A stretch of 58,408 bases of DNA from contig MIAA01000029.1 of assembly GCA_001830425.1 (NCBI GenBank), positions 1 to 58,408 on the forward strand. The letters run 5' to 3'. Shown piece after piece: positions 8,605 through 50,725 of this stretch. The notes under the pieces are model-generated. The model saw only the letters and a program-made list of their open reading frames with translations. It made no database searches and was not told the DNA's origin. How positions within the stretch are numbered: the first letter of the stretch is position 1; every line of letters begins with the position of its first letter. Origin of the DNA: Rhodospirillales bacterium RIFCSPLOWO2_02_FULL_58_16. Lineage in GTDB: Bacteria > Pseudomonadota > Alphaproteobacteria > Rhodospirillales > 2-02-FULL-58-16. The translations under genes were made by a program, and so were the position numbers.

Positions 8605-9860
8605 GTAAAAAAGGCGGAAACGGAGCCTCCGGACTGAAAGTCGGAAGTCGGGATCATCCGATTTATCTGGACTATCAGGCGACGACGCCGACCGATCCGC
8701 GTGTCGTTGAAGCCATGTTGCCCTATTTCTCGGTGATGTTCGGCAATCCCCACTCGCGCAGCCACCGCTACGGCTGGGAGGCCGAGGCGGCGGTGGAGAA
8801 GGCGCGCGCTCAAGTCGCCTCCATCATCAACGCCAACCCCAAGGAGATCATCTTCACCTCCGGCGCCACCGAGTCCAACAATCTGGCGATCAAGGGCGTG
8901 GCCCATTTTAACAAGGACAAGAAGAACCACATCATTACCTGCGTCACCGAACACAAGTGCGTACTCGATACCTGCCGGCATCTGGAGCAGGAGGGATTCA
9001 GCGTCACCTATCTGCATGTGCGGCCCAACGGGTTGATAAACCTTGAAGACCTGAAGGGAGCGATGACGGAAAAGACGGTGATTGTTTCCATCATGTCCGT
9101 CAATAACGAGATCGGCGTCATCCAGCCGATCAAGGAAATCGGCGCCCTTTGCCGCGAACGCGGAATTTATTTCCACACCGACGCCGCCCAGGCGGTGGGC
9201 AAGATACCGCTGGACGTGGAGGAGATGAACATCGACCTGATGAGCATCTCCGGCCACAAGATTTACGGGCCGATGGGCATCGGCGCTCTTTTCGTGCGTC
9301 GCCGTCCACGGGTGCGCCTTCAGGCGCTGTTCCATGGCGGCGGCCAGGAGCGCGGCATGCGCTCGGGCACTCTGCCGACGCCGTTGTGCGTAGGCCTCGG
9401 CGAGGCCTGCGCCATTGCCGAGGCCGAAATGGATGCCGAGAGCGAGCGCCTGGGCATGCTTCGCAAGCGCTTTGAAGACGCCATTAACAAGCGGTTGCCT
9501 GAAATCTATCTCAACGGCGACAGCGAACATCGCATCCCCGGCAACCTCAACTACAGCTTTGCCTATGTTGAGGGCGAGGGCCTGATGATGGCGATCAAGG
9601 ACCTGGCCGTTTCCTCCGGCTCCGCCTGCACCTCGGCATCCCTTGAGCCGTCATATGTGTTGAGGGCGCTCGGCGTCGATTCCGACATGGCCCATACTTC
9701 CCTGAGGATCGGCATGGGCCGTTTCACCACCGAGGAAGAGGTTGACTACGCCGCCGATAAAATCGCCGTTGAGGTCGAGCGGCTGCGCAAGATGAGTCCG
9801 TTGTGGGAGATGGCGCAGGAAGGGATCGATATAAAGTCCATCAAATGGGCTGAACACTAA
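8601..9860 (+). CDS. iscS: cysteine desulfurase IscS
   Basis: Releases sulfur from cysteine as an enzyme persulfide and hands it to IscU. Of 419 residues, the family landmarks are TEHKC (His118), Asp194 (FHTDAAQ), the PLP lysine Lys220 (SGHKIYG) and Cys343 in [13 protein letters not shown], which is the long flexible-loop form typical of true IscS and mitochondrial NFS1. Compared with E. coli IscS it has ~15 extra N-terminal residues. The ATG at 8601 has AGGAGGG six bases upstream and overlaps the previous stop by four bases; an in-frame ATG at 8583 lacks this ribosome site. Confidence 0.96.
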
Positions 9861-9900
9861 GAACCGGACCCGGAAAGCCGGCTGAATATGGAGAACGAAA

Positions 9901-10308
9901 ATGACATACAGCGACAAGCTTCTTGACCACTATGAAAATCCCCGCAACGTCGGGTCAATGGACAAGTCCGAAGATAACGTCGGCACCGGACTGGTCGGCG
10001 CCCCGGCCTGCGGAGACGTTATGAAACTGCAAATCAAGGTCGGCGCCGACGGCATCATCGAGGACGCCAAGTTCAAGACTTTCGGCTGCGGCTCGGCCAT
10101 CGCTTCAAGCTCGCTGGTTACCGAATGGGTCAAGGGCAAGTCGTTGGACGAGGCCGCCAGGATCAAGAACTCTGAGATCGTCTTTGAACTGTCCCTGCCG
10201 CCGGTTAAAATCCATTGCTCTGTTCTCGCCGAGGAAGCCATCAAGGCCGCCATCTCCGACTACAAGGCCAAAAATGCCGGTAAGGAAAAAATCGAGGCCG
10301 CTGAATGA
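9901..10308 (+). CDS. iscU: Fe–S cluster scaffold IscU
   Basis: Scaffold on which [2Fe-2S] clusters are assembled from IscS sulfur. The three ligand cysteines are present: Cys37 (APACGD), Cys63 (FGCGSA) and Cys106 (KIHCSVLAEEA). The LPPVK motif bound by the chaperone HscA is at residues 99–103. Length 135 is normal with a short charged C-terminal tail. GGAGAACGAAA precedes the ATG. The last four bases overlap iscA. Confidence 0.97.
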   Translation: MTYSDKLLDHYENPRNVGSMDKSEDNVGTGLVGAPACGDVMKLQIKVGADGIIEDAKFKTFGCGSAIASSSLVTEWVKGKSLDEAARIKNSEIVFELSLPPVKIHCSVLAEEAIKAAISDYKAKNAGKEKIEAAE

Positions 10309-44569: not shown

Positions 44570-46963
44570 ATGTTTGTCCGTGACCGTTTCACAACCTTTT
44601 GCTCTGCGAACAGAATCATCGGTCTCGGGTTCTGTCTGGCGGTTGCCGTCGGCGGCCTCTTTGGAGTCTGCTCGAATGCCGCCGCCCAGGATAGCGGCAA
44701 AGCGTCTGCCGCATCGGCTTCGCAAGGGGACAAAAGCTCGCTCAAGACCGCCCGCAACGCTCTTGACGGCGGGCAATTCGGGGAAGCCGCCGAGATTCTG
44801 AGAAAACTCGCCGACAAGGGCAACGCCGACGCCCAGACATTGCTCGGCGACCTTTACCTGACCGGGCGAGGCGTTCCGGCGAATAATTCGATGACCTGGC
44901 ACTGGTACAAGCGCGCCGCCGTGCAGGGCGACGCCGCCGCCCAGTACAAAATCGGCTATATGTACCAGAACGGCATCGGAATTCCCGCCGACCCCAAGGC
45001 CGCCATCGAATGGTACGGCCACGCCGCCAAGCAGAAACTCCCGGCGGCTCAAATCAAGCTGGCCCAGCTTCTCAAATCAAAACATGGTCCTTTCTATCCC
45101 GATATGCTGAAGTTGCTGGGGAAAATTGCCCCACGCAATCCAAGAGCGGCGCTCATCCTGGAAAAAATCGCCGCCACGGGCAGCGCAACCGCCCTGAATA
45201 TCCTCAAGGAACTGCCCTACTCCATCAGGAGATTGAACGGCGCTCCCCCTCCCTCGTTCGGCGACGCCGCCGATAAAGCCATTGCCGATTTCCTGAACGG
45301 CGACCACAAGATGGCGCTGGAAACTTTCACCGCTCTGGCAAACGCCGACAAAGCCGAGGGCTTTTTCGGCCTCGGAATCATGTATAGCGCCGGGGCCGGG
45401 TTGCCGCCCGATTACGCCAAGGCGGCAGAGAATTATCGCAAGGCCGCCGACAAGGGAAATGCCGCCGCCCAGTCCTCCCTGGGACGACTTTATCTTGAAG
45501 GCAGGGGCGTGCCCAAGGACAATACCGAGGCATTAAAATGGCTTATCATGTCCGCCAAGCAAGGCGACTCCGGCGCCGTGAACGCCTTGGGCCTCATGCA
45601 ATGGGAGGGCCTCGGCGTCCCCAAGAACTACGATGAGGCAATCAACAACTTCCGGGTCGCCGCCAAGGAAGGAAACGCCGCCGCCTTCAGCAATATCGCC
45701 AAGGCGTATACTTACGGCAAGGGCGTCCCCAAGGACTTCATCCAGGCCCACCTTTGGCTCAACCTCGCCATAAACCAGGGCGATGAATCGGCGTTAGAGG
45801 CGCGCTCCAAGCTGGAGACGCGATTGTCTTCCGGGCAGATTGCCGAAGCCGAATGGCTTTACCTGGAAAAGATGAAACCGGAACCGGCAGCCGTCGCCGC
45901 CATCGAAAAAATAGACGTCGGCAACGCTACGCCCAAGCAACTGACCAGCCTCGGCATCAGGCGCCAGTACGGACGCGACGTTCCCCAAAGCGACGTTGAA
46001 GCGGTGAAACTGTACCGCGCCGCCGCCGATCAGGGATACGCCAAGGCGCAAAGCAACCTTGCCTACATGTACAAGACCGGGCGGGGGGTCGATCAGAACC
46101 CTATAGAGGCGGCAAGGCTGTACCGTCTGGCCGCCGAGCAGGGGTACGCCAAGGCCCAGAAAAACATCGGCATCATGCACCAGTTCGGAAAGGGCATCCC
46201 CAAGGACGACACCGAGGCGGTGAAGTGGTATCGCATGGCCGCCGAACAGGGGGACGCCAAATCCCAGAACAACCTTGCCTTCATGTACCGATCCGGGCGC
46301 GGCGTTGAAAAAAACTACAAGGAAGCGGAGAAGTGGTATCGTCTGGCCGCCGAGCAGGGACACGCCAAGGCGCAAAAGAGCCTCGGCGTCTTTTACCAGT
46401 TCGGACGCGGCGTTAAAAAAGACAATGCCGAGGCGGCGAAGTGGTACGCCCTGGCCGCCGAACAGGGAAACGCCAAGGCCCAGGGCGATCTCGCCTTCAT
46501 GTACAAGTTCGGCCTGGGCGTCTCCAGGGATTATGAAACTGCGGTCAAGTGGTTCAAAAAGGCCGCCGACCGGAAAGACGCTCGCGGCCAAAAAGGCCTT
46601 GCCGACATGTACCTTGAAGGCAAGGGCGTCGAACGCGATTTTGCCAAGGCGGTTGACCTGTACCTGATGGCGATCGACCAGAATTACGCCAAAGCCCAGG
46701 AAACCCTCGACGACATGATCAAGAAAAGGCTGGGCGCGCCGAAAGATTATGAGAAAGCGGCGGATTTATACCGTGCGGCGGCGGATGCGGGAAAGGCCAA
46801 GGCCCAGAACACCCTCGGCTTGATGTACGGATACGGGCTGGGCGTCGATAAGAACTTCGAGGCGTCCGAAAAATGGCTCCTTCTGGCGAGCAAACAGGGG
46901 AACGCCGAGGCCAAGAGCAATCTTGCCGATCTAAAAAACAGAAAGACGAAGGGTACCTTCTGA
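44570..46963 (+). CDS. secreted Sel1-repeat protein
   Basis: 797 residues. A signal peptide (hydrophobic core GLGFCLAVAVGGLFGV, cleavage near NAAA-QD at about 40) precedes around 18 Sel1-like repeats of 36 residues (pattern A-x2-LG-x-MY-x2-G-x-GV-x-x-D…A-x-x-WY-x-x-AA-x-x-G). The last ten are very regular and alternate ‘…MYK/R.GRGV’ and ‘…QFGKG’ forms, suggesting duplication in pairs. Sel1 solenoids bind proteins or peptidoglycan-associated partners. The start was placed at the ATG giving the signal peptide. The pilin gene follows with a one-base overlap. Confidence 0.85.
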   Translation: MFVRDRFTTFCSANRIIGLGFCLAVAVGGLFGVCSNAAAQDSGKASAASASQGDKSSLKTARNALDGGQFGEAAEILRKLADKGNADAQTLLGDLYLTGRGVPANNSMTWHWYKRAAVQGDAAAQYKIGYMYQNGIGIPADPKAAIEWYGHAAKQKLPAAQIKLAQLLKSKHGPFYPDMLKLLGKIAPRNPRAALILEKIAATGSATALNILKELPYSIRRLNGAPPPSFGDAADKAIADFLNGDHKMALETFTALANADKAEGFFGLGIMYSAGAGLPPDYAKAAENYRKAADKGNAAAQSSLGRLYLEGRGVPKDNTEALKWLIMSAKQGDSGAVNALGLMQWEGLGVPKNYDEAINNFRVAAKEGNAAAFSNIAKAYTYGKGVPKDFIQAHLWLNLAINQGDESALEARSKLETRLSSGQIAEAEWLYLEKMKPEPAAVAAIEKIDVGNATPKQLTSLGIRRQYGRDVPQSDVEAVKLYRAAADQGYAKAQSNLAYMYKTGRGVDQNPIEAARLYRLAAEQGYAKAQKNIGIMHQFGKGIPKDDTEAVKWYRMAAEQGDAKSQNNLAFMYRSGRGVEKNYKEAEKWYRLAAEQGHAKAQKSLGVFYQFGRGVKKDNAEAAKWYALAAEQGNAKAQGDLAFMYKFGLGVSRDYETAVKWFKKAADRKDARGQKGLADMYLEGKGVERDFAKAVDLYLMAIDQNYAKAQETLDDMIKKRLGAPKDYEKAADLYRAAADAGKAKAQNTLGLMYGYGLGVDKNFEASEKWLLLASKQGNAEAKSNLADLKNRKTKGTF

Positions 46964-47349
46964 TGCCCGTAACCGACCCGCCGAAAATCGTAAAATTTTC
47001 AAAGTATCGGAATCTGTCCGATTTCACCAGGGACCTGTTGTCCGGCGCCGCCGGCGTAACGGCGGTCGAGTATGTGGTTATCATCTGCTTTACCGCCGCC
47101 ATGGCCATCATCTCATGGGGCTATCTCGGCGGCAATCTCCAGACCTTGTTCACCAACGTCGGCTGTTATCTTACCGGAAGCGCCAATTGTTCAACCGGCG
47201 ACGAAGAAGATGACGCCGTCGTCGCCGCCGCCGCCGAATCAGACGAAAGCGACGACGACGAGGATGATTCCGATAACCAGGGCGACGACGAAGACGACTC
47301 CGACGAAGATAACGGCGACGACGGCGGAGACGATGAGGAGGAGGACTAA
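46963..47349 (+). CDS. Flp-like pilin with hyperacidic C-terminal tail
   Basis: 128 residues. The core GAAGVTAVEYVVI matches Flp/Fap type IVb pilins: cleavage after Gly31 would leave Glu at mature position 5, then a single hydrophobic helix to about residue 52. Two cysteines (68, 76) follow. Residues 80–128 form an extreme tail in which 31 of 49 residues are Asp or Glu, with Ser, Gly, Asn and Ala and no basic residue. Ordinary Flp pilins end soon after the helix. No tad assembly or prepilin peptidase gene is nearby. It is coupled to the Sel1 gene (TGATG), and its stop overlaps that of the convergent ATP-grasp gene. Confidence 0.8.
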   Translation: MPVTDPPKIVKFSKYRNLSDFTRDLLSGAAGVTAVEYVVIICFTAAMAIISWGYLGGNLQTLFTNVGCYLTGSANCSTGDEEDDAVVAAAAESDESDDDEDDSDNQGDDEDDSDEDNGDDGGDDEEED

Positions 47350-48623
47350 GCGATCTTCCTGTCGATCATCCTGTTGAAGGCGCCGGTAACATTCTGAAGG
47401 TATGGAGTCAGGTAAGGGAACTTGCGGGCATGGCCGAAATGATGGCGCATCGCCGGATTTAGTTCAAAAATCAAAATCCTTCCATCGTCCATGATGTCGA
47501 AGTCGATGCCGAAATAATCAAGCCCGACCGGCTTATACAGCCCTTTAAGACATTCGTATTGATCGTGTCCGATATAGTTCCTGCCGTCGGCCAGGAATGA
47601 TTTTTCATCCTCCATCATCCATTCATTTTGCGTCATAATTTTTGCCCTGTTTTCGCCATGCACGTTCCATGTGGTGTCGATATGGCAAACAACGGGGTAC
47701 AGTTGACCATCGACGCAGAAGAACCTCATCTTCCTGAAGAAGCTGCCGAGGAGCAAACTTTCCACATATTGGATAACGTATAATTCCTTCGCCTGCCCCC
47801 CCTTCACATAGGCCGTCAAGTGATGGGGGGCCGTTATCATCGAGAATGTTCTTCCGGTCTGGCTACCGGGTTCCCTGACCAGAAACGGATAGGCGAAACC
47901 GTTTTCCTCAACGGCTTTTATCAGCGCCCCGCCGTCCGCGCCGTCCGTCGCCAGGCGGACGGTTTTGGGGAAGACGATGCCGTCGATCCCGCCGAGCCGT
48001 CGGTAATTTCTGTCCCTGGAGGTTTCCGCCACCTTGTCGGGGTGGTTGATGAGCGGAACATTCCCCTTGCGGCGAAGAAATTCCGCCAGCGCCGTCAGCG
48101 AGTTAAGTTCCACATCCGGGTCGGCTATGGAGTTGATGATGATGTCGAATTCGGGAATATCATCGCAAGACAGGATATTATTATCCTGAACAAGGAAATT
48201 AATGGTCTCGTATCTGTCCATGTCGGTCAGGTGCGTATCCGAGAAATTGCCGCCGGAAAGCTTGATCTTGTATTGCCCCTTGCTGTTCCTGCCCAAGGTG
48301 TAACGGCTATTGTCGATGCCCCTGACCCGTAATATGCGGGCCGTCGGCTCTTTTCTGCATTTCTTGACGATAAATGGTTTTCGGCGAACGCCCTCGCCGA
48401 GAATCGATGCCGCCGCCTCCGTCTCTCCGCGATAAAAGCGGATCGCCGACAGGAAGATATGCGCCATGGTGTTGTCCGGTTCTGTTTCCAGAACCTTAAG
48501 ACATGCCGCCGCAGCCTCGTCGAATTCCCCTTTTCCGATCAGGGCGCCCGTCGAATTATTATAGAACTCGGCATCGCCGTAAGCGGGCGAAGCGTCAGTT
48601 GTTGTTTTGTCCTGATCGGTCAT
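47346..48623 (-). CDS. TPR–ATP-grasp protein
   Basis: 425 residues. The first ~95 form two TPR-like helical pairs (FDEAAAACLKVLETEPDN; YRGETEAAASIL). The C-terminal ~250 resemble an ATP-grasp ligase: AYPFLVREPGSQTG, then YVIQYV, DYFGIDFDIMDDG and the metal-binding end ILIFELNPAMRH. ATP-grasp enzymes join a carboxylate to an amine, thiol or alcohol through an acyl phosphate. RimK and graspetide ligases use Glu/Asp of proteins as substrate. The substrate here is unknown; the acidic pilin encoded convergently is a candidate by position only. No signal peptide, so it acts in the cytoplasm. Confidence 0.75.
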   Translation of the reverse strand: MTDQDKTTTDASPAYGDAEFYNNSTGALIGKGEFDEAAAACLKVLETEPDNTMAHIFLSAIRFYRGETEAAASILGEGVRRKPFIVKKCRKEPTARILRVRGIDNSRYTLGRNSKGQYKIKLSGGNFSDTHLTDMDRYETINFLVQDNNILSCDDIPEFDIIINSIADPDVELNSLTALAEFLRRKGNVPLINHPDKVAETSRDRNYRRLGGIDGIVFPKTVRLATDGADGGALIKAVEENGFAYPFLVREPGSQTGRTFSMITAPHHLTAYVKGGQAKELYVIQYVESLLLGSFFRKMRFFCVDGQLYPVVCHIDTTWNVHGENRAKIMTQNEWMMEDEKSFLADGRNYIGHDQYECLKGLYKPVGLDYFGIDFDIMDDGRILIFELNPAMRHHFGHARKFPYLTPYLQNVTGAFNRMIDRKIA

Positions 48624-48706
48624 GATTCCACTCTATCCGATTGCAATGTCCCCGTTAAACAGGCAACATTTACGCCATGATAATCCGCTCGGAGCCGCAC
48701 GTTAAA

Positions 48707-50725
48707 ATGCCCGCCGCAAAAAATCGGATCAAGGCGCTGGTTCTGCTCATGGCCGTCGCCGCCATGCCGGCCTGGGGCGCATCCGCCGCCGATCCGCCCC
48801 CGCAGGAAAACAGCGAAGCCGCCGCAGCCGCCAAGGCCGCCAAGGCGCTGGAGGAAGTGCAGGGCGCCCTGGCCGGCGGCGACGACAAAAAAATCGCCAG
48901 AAACCTGGAAGCCCTGGCTAAATCCGGCAACGCCAAAGCCCAGGCCATGATCGGCGATCTCTACCTTGAAGGCAAAGGCGTCGAGGCAAACAACTCAATG
49001 GCATGGCACTGGTACAAACGCGCCGCCGAGAACGAGGACGCAGAAGGACAGTTCAAGCTCGCAGAATTGTACCGCCTGGGCGTAGGCGTCCCCTTCAGTC
49101 TGGCCGGCGCCGCAGAATGGTACGCCAAGGCCGCCGAAAAAGATCACCTTAAGGCGCAAAAGCACCTCGGCCTGCTCTATGCGGGGAAGTTCGGCAGTTC
49201 CAAGGTGGATAAAAAGAAGGCGGAGGAATGGCTGGACATGGCCGCCAAGAAGGGAGATGTCGAGGCGGAGCAAGCCCTCGATGAATTGTACGACAGCGGT
49301 TATGAGTCGCCTTTCAGACAAGGCCGGACCCTTTCCGTTGACGAAGCCGATATTGATACCGATGTCGGATTTATCCACATGGTCATCACCAACGCCATAA
49401 ACGCCATGATCCCGCCGAACGCGACCATGAAAATGAACGGGCCGGTGCGCGTCGCGGAAGAGGACCAGGGCTGGTTCGCCGTTTCCATCCCGGATTTCGC
49501 GTTCGTCAGGAGTGACGGCTCCGGCGTTTCTTTTGCCGAATCCGGTTTAAAGATCAAGCCGGAAGACGGCAATATCAAGGACGCACACGCCTACAGGGTC
49601 AACGTGACCCTGCCGGCGCGGATACGGGCGACCATGGTTGATATGAATAATAGCCGGAAACTGGTCATAACCCACAACCAGAAACGATTTAACGGCCTGT
49701 GGCATCCCGAAAGCAATCGCTTCGCCGAGGCCGATATCGAACTGACGAATATATTGATCAAGGAACCGGAAAAATCGCTGACCGTCGCCGCCGACCGTTT
49801 TGTGATTGCCGGCAACCGGAAGGGAGCCTCCCCCGGAACATCGGGCGGCGTCTACCGTATGGGAATCGCCAAAATTGCCGTCACCACTCCCGGCGTCAGA
49901 TTGGCGTCTCTGGAATCAATGGAAATAACCGGCAACATCGGGGGCTTTGATGACAAAGCCTTTACCGACAACATCAGGCTGATTTCTCAAAACGCCATGC
50001 CCAAGACGACGTCCCGCCTTAGTCCCGACGCATCAAGGGAACTGACAAAAAAGATGGCGCTGACGGCGTTGCGCGCGGCGCCGAATATGGGAGTTGATCT
50101 GAAACTGGTCAACCTGGAAATCAACGATGATAAAGGCAAGTCTGTCGGATCGCTGGGCGGCCTGAACTTCTCCGCCGCATGGGGGCTGGAGATGCCTTAC
50201 GCCGCCCTCTCCCTCGCCTATGCCCACAACAACCTGAAAGCCGCCGACAGCCGATCACAGGCCGTCGCCCCTCACGACGCCGCCGTCAGCATCAAGGTCG
50301 AGCGCTTGCCGATCGAGGCGGTTTTGGAGGCATTGTTTGATCGGCAATCATTTTCTACCGCCGGCATCCGCAGTCTGTCGGCGCAGGCGGGAACCAAAAT
50401 CATCGCCAGGGCCGATATGAACGCCGTCAAGGCCGGCCTCACCCTGGACGGTCTGCTGAAAGCCGACGCCGCGTCCGTCTACGGCGTTTCGGGAGGCTTC
50501 GATCTCGCGGTCAAAGGAATCGACAAAATCAAGGAAGCGGCGACCAAGGACCCCAAAAATGTAGAGCCGATTTTTCTGTTGCTCACGAATATGTTATCCG
50601 ATCTGGCGGTTGCCGGACCCGGCCCCGACGGCGATGATACGGCCAGGTTCCACATCGACATAACCGCCGACGGGAAGGTTCTGATCAACGGAAATGACAT
50701 GGCGACGGCTGCCGCCAACAAGTAA
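48707..50725 (+). CDS. secreted protein with N-terminal Sel1 repeats and unknown C-terminal domain
   Basis: About 672 residues. After a signal peptide (KALVLLMAVAAMPAWGASA) and an Ala-rich helix come three to four Sel1 repeats. The repeat AMIGDLYLEGKGVEANNSMAW, cited by its ends, is nearly the same as in the 44570–46963 protein, so the two share ancestry. From about residue 200 there is a long beta-rich region (WFAVSIPDFAF, YRVNVTLPARIR, SLTVAADRFVI) recalling the repetitive lipid- or envelope-associated DUF945/DUF2125 proteins, but this is not certain. An upstream ATG at 48677 is possible; the chosen one gives a normal signal peptide. Confidence 0.72.
   Translation: MPAAKNRIKALVLLMAVAAMPAWGASAADPPPQENSEAAAAAKAAKALEEVQGALAGGDDKKIARNLEALAKSGNAKAQAMIGDLYLEGKGVEANNSMAWHWYKRAAENEDAEGQFKLAELYRLGVGVPFSLAGAAEWYAKAAEKDHLKAQKHLGLLYAGKFGSSKVDKKKAEEWLDMAAKKGDVEAEQALDELYDSGYESPFRQGRTLSVDEADIDTDVGFIHMVITNAINAMIPPNATMKMNGPVRVAEEDQGWFAVSIPDFAFVRSDGSGVSFAESGLKIKPEDGNIKDAHAYRVNVTLPARIRATMVDMNNSRKLVITHNQKRFNGLWHPESNRFAEADIELTNILIKEPEKSLTVAADRFVIAGNRKGASPGTSGGVYRMGIAKIAVTTPGVRLASLESMEITGNIGGFDDKAFTDNIRLISQNAMPKTTSRLSPDASRELTKKMALTALRAAPNMGVDLKLVNLEINDDKGKSVGSLGGLNFSAAWGLEMPYAALSLAYAHNNLKAADSRSQAVAPHDAAVSIKVERLPIEAVLEALFDRQSFSTAGIRSLSAQAGTKIIARADMNAVKAGLTLDGLLKADAASVYGVSGGFDLAVKGIDKIKEAATKDPKNVEPIFLLLTNMLSDLAVAGPGPDGDDTARFHIDITADGKVLINGNDMATAAANK

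Follow-up and report, generated by a model that had tools for sequence, protein, structure and literature searches.

The window analysed here is a stretch of 58,408 nucleotides that makes up the entire contig C29 (MIAA01000029.1) of Rhodospirillales bacterium RIFCSPLOWO2_02_FULL_58_16 (genome G000, 2.73 Mb in total). Its subject is a compact gene group in which a Flp-like pilin with a strongly acidic C-terminal tail is preceded by the gene of a Sel1-repeat protein and encoded tail-to-tail with a TPR–ATP-grasp enzyme. The features are as follows.

~44570..46963, + strand: Sel1-repeat protein of ~797 amino acids with an apparent signal peptide; 15 Sel1 stretches, E 5e-122
46963..47349, + strand: Flp-like prepilin of 128 amino acids; cleavage site G31|VTAVEY; Flp_Fap, 25.3 bits
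47200..47346, + strand: coding part of the acidic tail, the last 49 codons before TAA; 31 D/E, 0 K/R/H
47346..48623, − strand: putative TPR–ATP-grasp ligase of 425 amino acids without an apparent signal peptide; assigned by AlphaFold2 (AF2) fold, VIA-align and D374/E387/N389
48677..50725, + strand: another Sel1-repeat protein, its gene divergent from that of the ATP-grasp enzyme; 3 Sel1 stretches

The Sel1 stop codon (TGA, 46961-46963) overlaps the ATG of the pilin by 1 nucleotide, which suggests translational coupling, and the pilin gene therefore appears to stand second in a Sel1–pilin operon. At its other end, the pilin TAA (+) and the ATP-grasp TAG (−) overlap by 4 nucleotides, with each gene measured through its final base, so that the convergent arrangement with overlapping stops reported in the original prediction is confirmed.

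A recount likewise bears out the description of the pilin given there, namely a Flp-like core with a Glu5-type site and a tail in which 31 of the 49 residues are acidic and none is basic. The tail contains 4 Ser and no Thr, and the mature protein of 97 residues has 32 D/E and no K/R. Among the 41,599 windows of 49 residues in the six frames of the contig, the best one outside this tail has 15 acidic residues. A class III-type site (G|xxxxEY ahead of a hydrophobic helix) is present as G31|VTAVEYVVIICFTAAMAIISW, with Glu5 and Tyr6, and the AF2 model, which was used for the helix alone, places a helix at residues 29-71 ahead of an unstructured remainder (low confidence, pTM 0.22). The Pfam family Flp_Fap (PF04964) matches residues 30-67 with an E-value of 1.3e-5, at 25.3 bits and so under its gathering score of 32.2 bits; the homologue at locus L036 clears that score with 37.4 bits. 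A prepilin peptidase (PF01478) and a Tad-type secretin N domain (PF13629) are encoded in all five genomes that carry an acidic-tail pilin, and on contig C30 of G000 a canonical Flp pilin adjoins a prepilin peptidase; the acidic-tail protein is therefore probably an accessory (minor) pilin. Inspected by eye, contig C30 (L048, 6369-10510, − strand) shows a gene for a Cas9-like protein (1076 amino acids) and a Cas1-like gene near both thyA/folA-like genes and the canonical Flp pilin.

The five genomes were found by running a pilin profile against the 297 genomes of the order, where acidic-tail homologues occur in G000 (two copies), G146, G252, G093 and G101. In each of the five a Sel1-repeat gene lies just 5' of the pilin gene and co-directional with it (the window, L036, L058, L149 and L150). 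The two reading frames overlap in the window, L149 and L150, and the Sel1 proteins, that of L036 left out, give long alignments with 35-61% identity. Sel1 and acidic-tail pilin genes, in that order, make up an operon-like unit in these five genomes. Among the homologous tails charge is kept, sequence is not. The complete triad, Sel1 gene, acidic-tail pilin gene and convergent ATP-grasp gene, is found in three genomes from two families (the window, L036/L061 and L058); besides the window's own genome these are G146/OFTM193 and G252/OFTM364, both outside the window's family. The original prediction had proposed a search for the pilin–ATP-grasp pair in other genomes, and the pair does recur in G146 and G252, tail-to-tail and with Sel1 5' of the pilin. 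Its caution that the link is merely positional no longer holds, and recurrence makes a stronger case for neighbours that belong together than the window alone could. Enzyme and acidic-tail pilin occur together in 3 genomes, drawn from 13 and 5 of the 297, giving a hypergeometric p of 6e-4, a value that ignores shared ancestry.

Further pilin homologues differ in their surroundings or their tails. The second acidic-tail Flp-like pilin of the window's own genome (L049, contig C42, ~9731-10100, − strand) is 45% identical to the first and adjoins yajC/secD/secF-like genes, with neither a Sel1 nor an ATP-grasp neighbour. G114, an enzyme-free genome of the window's family, encodes a homologue (L112 1495-1929 / L152 5544-5978) with a long Ser/Gly-repeat tail in which 3 of 84 residues are acidic. 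In a class-wide search of 385 genomes none of the matches listed, the window's genome aside, reaches an acidic tail. The second Sel1 protein of the window (48677-50725) is 47% identical in its N-terminal region to the first over 116 amino acids, the C-terminal two thirds of it have no Pfam match, and it was not seen at the other pilin loci; its membership of the system is doubtful.

Sequence-based calls on the enzyme are weak (TPR, E 0.0013; best ATP-grasp matches, E 0.0022-0.005, RimK-like). Its AF2 model (pLDDT 88, pTM 0.86) has a clear ATP-grasp fold, as had been predicted. In VIA-align comparisons the model scores highest with RimK (Z 20.1) and ArgX/LysX (19.6), followed by glutathione synthetase (GshB, 18.1) and D-Ala-D-Ala ligase (Ddl, ~17), a modest separation, and Foldseek places the D-Ala-D-Ala ligases at the top. 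The presumed Mg ligands D374, E387 and N389, assigned by motif with no superposition, are invariant in 12 of 12 homologues. The RimK/LysX-like fold, coupled with these invariant residues, makes it likely that the protein is an active carboxylate-amine ligase. The kinship to RimK and graspetide enzymes that had been suggested thus stands in part: the nearest folds are indeed the protein-carboxylate ligases RimK and LysX/ArgX, but the curated models are not matched. The cut-off of the RimK family TIGR00768 is missed by a wide interval (16.3-17.4 against 143.4 bits), and none of the graspetide models (MvdC/MvdD/maturase) matches the window's enzyme.

These results bear on a graspetide-like maturation, in which Asp/Glu–Ser ester or amide cross-links would form inside the tail. 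The tails that adjoin the enzyme in the other two genomes are Ser-rich, with 30-31% S/T/K, and a few members of the enzyme family match MvdC/MvdD/GRASP_SAV_5884 weakly. However, such matches occur in other members alone and at E 0.006 or worse, the 49 residues of the window's tail include 4 Ser but neither Thr nor Lys and show no leader/core motif, and the substrate would be a membrane-inserted pilin instead of a free peptide. Such cross-linking is very improbable, and the earlier graspetide reading of the tail is abandoned, since neither a precursor motif nor a significant graspetide-ligase match was found.

A full-length enzyme profile returned many TPR-only matches, and the ATP-grasp part alone was used for genome counts. 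A scan of the genome collection with P0002 alone gave no match; a scan with the alignment gave 52 loci. The close clade of the enzyme is confined to 13 of the 297 genomes of the order, with E-values of 1e-134 or better against 1e-59 and weaker for the remaining ATP-grasp proteins. In three of these (G000, G146, G252) the gene lies tail-to-tail with the acidic-tail pilin. In seven more (G069, G188 on two contigs, G198, G033, G051, G137 and G109) it converges, tail-to-tail, on the 3' end of a giant acidic adhesin gene, and in G088 the adhesin gene is co-directional with it, so that an adhesin stands beside the enzyme in 8 of 13 genomes. Altogether 10 of the 13 genomes have the enzyme gene tail-to-tail with an acidic surface gene, from one of two unrelated partner families, and the stop-to-stop gaps at the convergent loci range from -4 to 109 nucleotides. 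The adhesins are LapA-type proteins, of the sort controlled by LapG, with repeats-in-toxin (RTX) or cadherin-like repeats, and contain 15-23% D+E against 1-4% K+R; equally acidic genes make up ~4% of those in the sampled loci (11/273, the adhesins themselves counted). According to the original prediction, ATP-grasp homologues widely present without an acidic-tail pilin nearby would speak against the pairing. Most homologues do lack such a pilin, yet in 8 of the 13 close-clade genomes an acidic adhesin adjoins the enzyme instead. The association between the enzyme and acidic surface proteins is real, and the enzyme's partners would seem to be acidic adhesive surface proteins as a class, the pilin being one case.

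Where an adhesin is the partner, the enzyme gene usually runs in the same direction as a gene for a dCache-PAS-HD_5 protein, often no more than a few tens of nucleotides away, and that gene in turn adjoins LapG (PF06035). In the dCache-PAS + HD_5 proteins beside LapG at L033 (10730-12862), L034 (2796-4921) and L044 (10758-13031) the HD and HHE/GYP motifs are apparently missing, and the protein could be a degenerate cyclic di-GMP receptor that takes the place of LapD. At L235 (2614-11778) of G093 the dCache-HD gene, which has LapG next to it, is convergent with the adhesin gene, and no ATP-grasp gene intervenes. In the window no LapG or giant RTX adhesin lies beside the enzyme; LapG, dCache-HD and an adhesin are encoded on other contigs of G000.

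On the enzyme tree the window's protein falls in a clade of 12 rows (support 96/85) made up of 8 adhesin rows, 3 pilin rows and 1 CobW case, and the pilin arrangement requires two changes. The enzyme profile finds one copy each in G000, G146 and G252, and these genomes have adhesin genes elsewhere; in G000 the adhesin gene runs to the contig end, with its 3' neighbour out of view, and the sole enzyme copy is on C29. With a single enzyme copy and an adhesin encoded elsewhere in the pilin-type genomes, the enzyme has apparently changed partners between adhesin and pilin, acidic surface proteins unrelated to each other. The same tree bears on the view that the pairing was inherited by accident, as a convergent junction kept because breakage would harm overlapping or closely packed genes. 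The stops do overlap in the window, L039 and L035, but the junction was not passed on as a block, given the two changes on the tree and a partner that is adhesin or pilin depending on the genome, and this view is improbable.

In the wider enzyme family, several cyanobacterial homologues lie near large RTX proteins. At L085 (9539-15700) the enzyme gene is tail-to-tail with the gene of a 1636-amino-acid RTX/C-type-lectin protein, and at L074, L075, L083 and L084 an RTX gene is convergent with the enzyme gene within ~1.3 kb. The close relatives of the window's enzyme, whose genes nearly always stand at the end of one for an acidic surface protein, hint at a previously undescribed link between the enzyme family and bacterial adhesion.

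These observations can be drawn together into a single scheme. The acidic-tail pilin would be an accessory subunit handled by Tad/Flp machinery whose genes lie in another part of the genome; the exported Sel1 protein would aid its export or assembly, and the tail would form a polyanionic surface that binds Ca2+, other cations or basic surfaces. The cytoplasmic ATP-grasp enzyme would be an ATP-dependent carboxylate-amine ligase serving acidic adhesive surface proteins, and would most likely amidate or conjugate some of their Asp/Glu carboxylates before export, its gene having become fixed beside the acidic-tail pilin, not an adhesin, in the lineage of the window. The secretion signal of type I secreted RTX adhesins is C-terminal, so that modification of an adhesin in the cytoplasm before export is plausible. 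The enzyme might also modify the pilin tail, for which the recurring acidic partner counts. The explanation as a whole, with its accessory pilin, Sel1 helper, polyanionic tail and ligase acting on acidic adhesive surface proteins, is offered tentatively, as a credible account that falls short of being probable.

A number of observations weigh against this scheme. As convergent genes, those of pilin and enzyme lie on separate transcripts. The membrane insertion expected of a Flp prepilin is N-in/C-out, a topology that should place the tail outside the cytoplasm whilst the enzyme has no apparent signal peptide; the enzyme would thus have to meet the tail prior to translocation. The partners end in different residues (D, S, S and G in the pilins; G, M, T, T, Q, F and E in the adhesins), and because their C-termini share no motif, a C-terminal ligation of the RimK/LysW kind (glutamylation) is unlikely. 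The enzyme itself is not basic, with a net charge of about -5. Close-clade enzymes adjoin a CobW-like gene in G156 (L035/L060) and a PEP-CTERM protein gene in G025 (L043), adhesin modules occur without the enzyme in G093, G114 and G146, and the dCache-HD and adhesin genes of G146 converge directly, without an enzyme gene between them. The Sel1–acidic-tail pilin operon is also found without the enzyme in two genomes, G093 and G101, so that the enzyme is an optional partner of the unit. In a sister clade from Kordiimonas relatives (L070 9737-14650; similar at L067, L071, L072, L082 and L088) the neighbours are a convergent class I/II aminotransferase, then a phosphoenolpyruvate (PEP) mutase and a phosphonopyruvate-decarboxylase-like thiamine diphosphate (ThDP) enzyme, a cluster that may be a phosphonate conjugate pathway; other sister-clade neighbours are acetolactate-synthase-like genes. 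Charge complementarity of the enzyme was rejected, its net charge being near zero or negative.

The sister clades leave room for a small-molecule role, in which the enzyme would be an amino-acid ligase (compare D-Ala-D-Ala, CofF and phosphonopeptide ligases) that makes a small peptide-like attachment molecule, with the pilin no substrate. The PEP mutase, ThDP decarboxylase-type enzyme and aminotransferase of the Kordiimonas relatives are in keeping with it, as are the Foldseek ranking, the Z-scores of 17-18 for GshB and Ddl, near that of RimK, and a weak match to the CofF profile in 8 of 12 members. The window's own clade, however, has no recurring biosynthetic genes, its neighbours being adhesin, LapG, dCache-HD, pilin and Sel1 genes, and such a role is rather unlikely. 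In a second account the tail stays unmodified and equips an accessory pilin with a polyanion, for binding Ca2+ or other cations, for repulsion or for docking on basic surfaces, and the enzyme serves some other purpose, its position reflecting an adhesion/biofilm gene island. It is favoured by the enzyme-free operons, by tails that conserve charge and not sequence, and by the expected separation of tail and enzyme, and is a realistic possibility without being the probable one. It leaves unaccounted for the tail-to-tail position beside an acidic surface gene in 10 of 13 close-clade genomes, with one more co-directional, and the sharing of that position by two unrelated partner families.

If the scheme of a ligase acting on acidic surface proteins is correct, a new level of control would act on both LapG-type adhesion and Tad-type pili, and partners of two unrelated kinds are at hand for study. 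Even without modification, the conserved Sel1 and acidic-tail pilin operon represents a distinct type of accessory pilin. The association of enzyme and acidic surface proteins is apparently undescribed: no description of it turned up in literature searches on ATP-grasp enzymes with adhesins, LapG, RTX or TPR and on Flp pilins with Sel1 proteins or an acidic tail, a coverage that does not extend to Iyer et al. 2009. Two articles (PMC12096838, PMC12239564) cite Iyer et al. 2009 on amidoligases.

Comparison with known systems places the components near, and apart from, several of them. The window's pilin shares with Flp/Fap (Tad) pilins the G|xxxxEY site, a single hydrophobic helix, a short mature protein and Tad machinery in the genome; unlike them, it scores under the Pfam gathering threshold, carries a 49-residue acidic tail and is paired with Sel1 outside a Tad locus. 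RimK and LysX/ArgX act on carboxylates at protein C-termini. RimK, the C-terminal glutamate ligase of RpsF, and LysX/ArgX are the closest folds to the enzyme, with Z of ~19-20 over 257-271 residues and a common D/E/N Mg-ligand motif, whereas the enzyme differs in its 14-16% identity, an extra N-terminal TPR, a family-specific HxDxxWxVHGxNR motif and partners with differing C-termini. As in LapA/LapD/LapG systems, relatives of the enzyme sit between genes for a giant acidic RTX adhesin and a LapG-type protease; unlike in those systems, the neighbour of LapG is a dCache-PAS-HD protein whose HD-GYP domain appears degenerate, the enzyme is an additional and optional component, and the partner in the window is a pilin. 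Graspetide (microviridin-type) systems also have an ATP-grasp gene beside that of an Asp/Glu-rich polypeptide, but here there is no leader/core motif or significant profile match, and the partner is a membrane pilin. The boldest proposal is that an unrecognised class of TPR–ATP-grasp ligases, able to switch between unrelated acidic partners, might modify adhesins and pilins in their acidic regions before export, comparably to the action of tubulin polyglutamylases on the acidic tails of tubulin; by analogy this can be entertained, but it is unlikely. Tubulin polyglutamylases (TTLL) are ATP-grasp-like ligases that act on the disordered acidic tail of a filament subunit, and the comparison with the window's enzyme is one of analogy alone, with no homology claimed.

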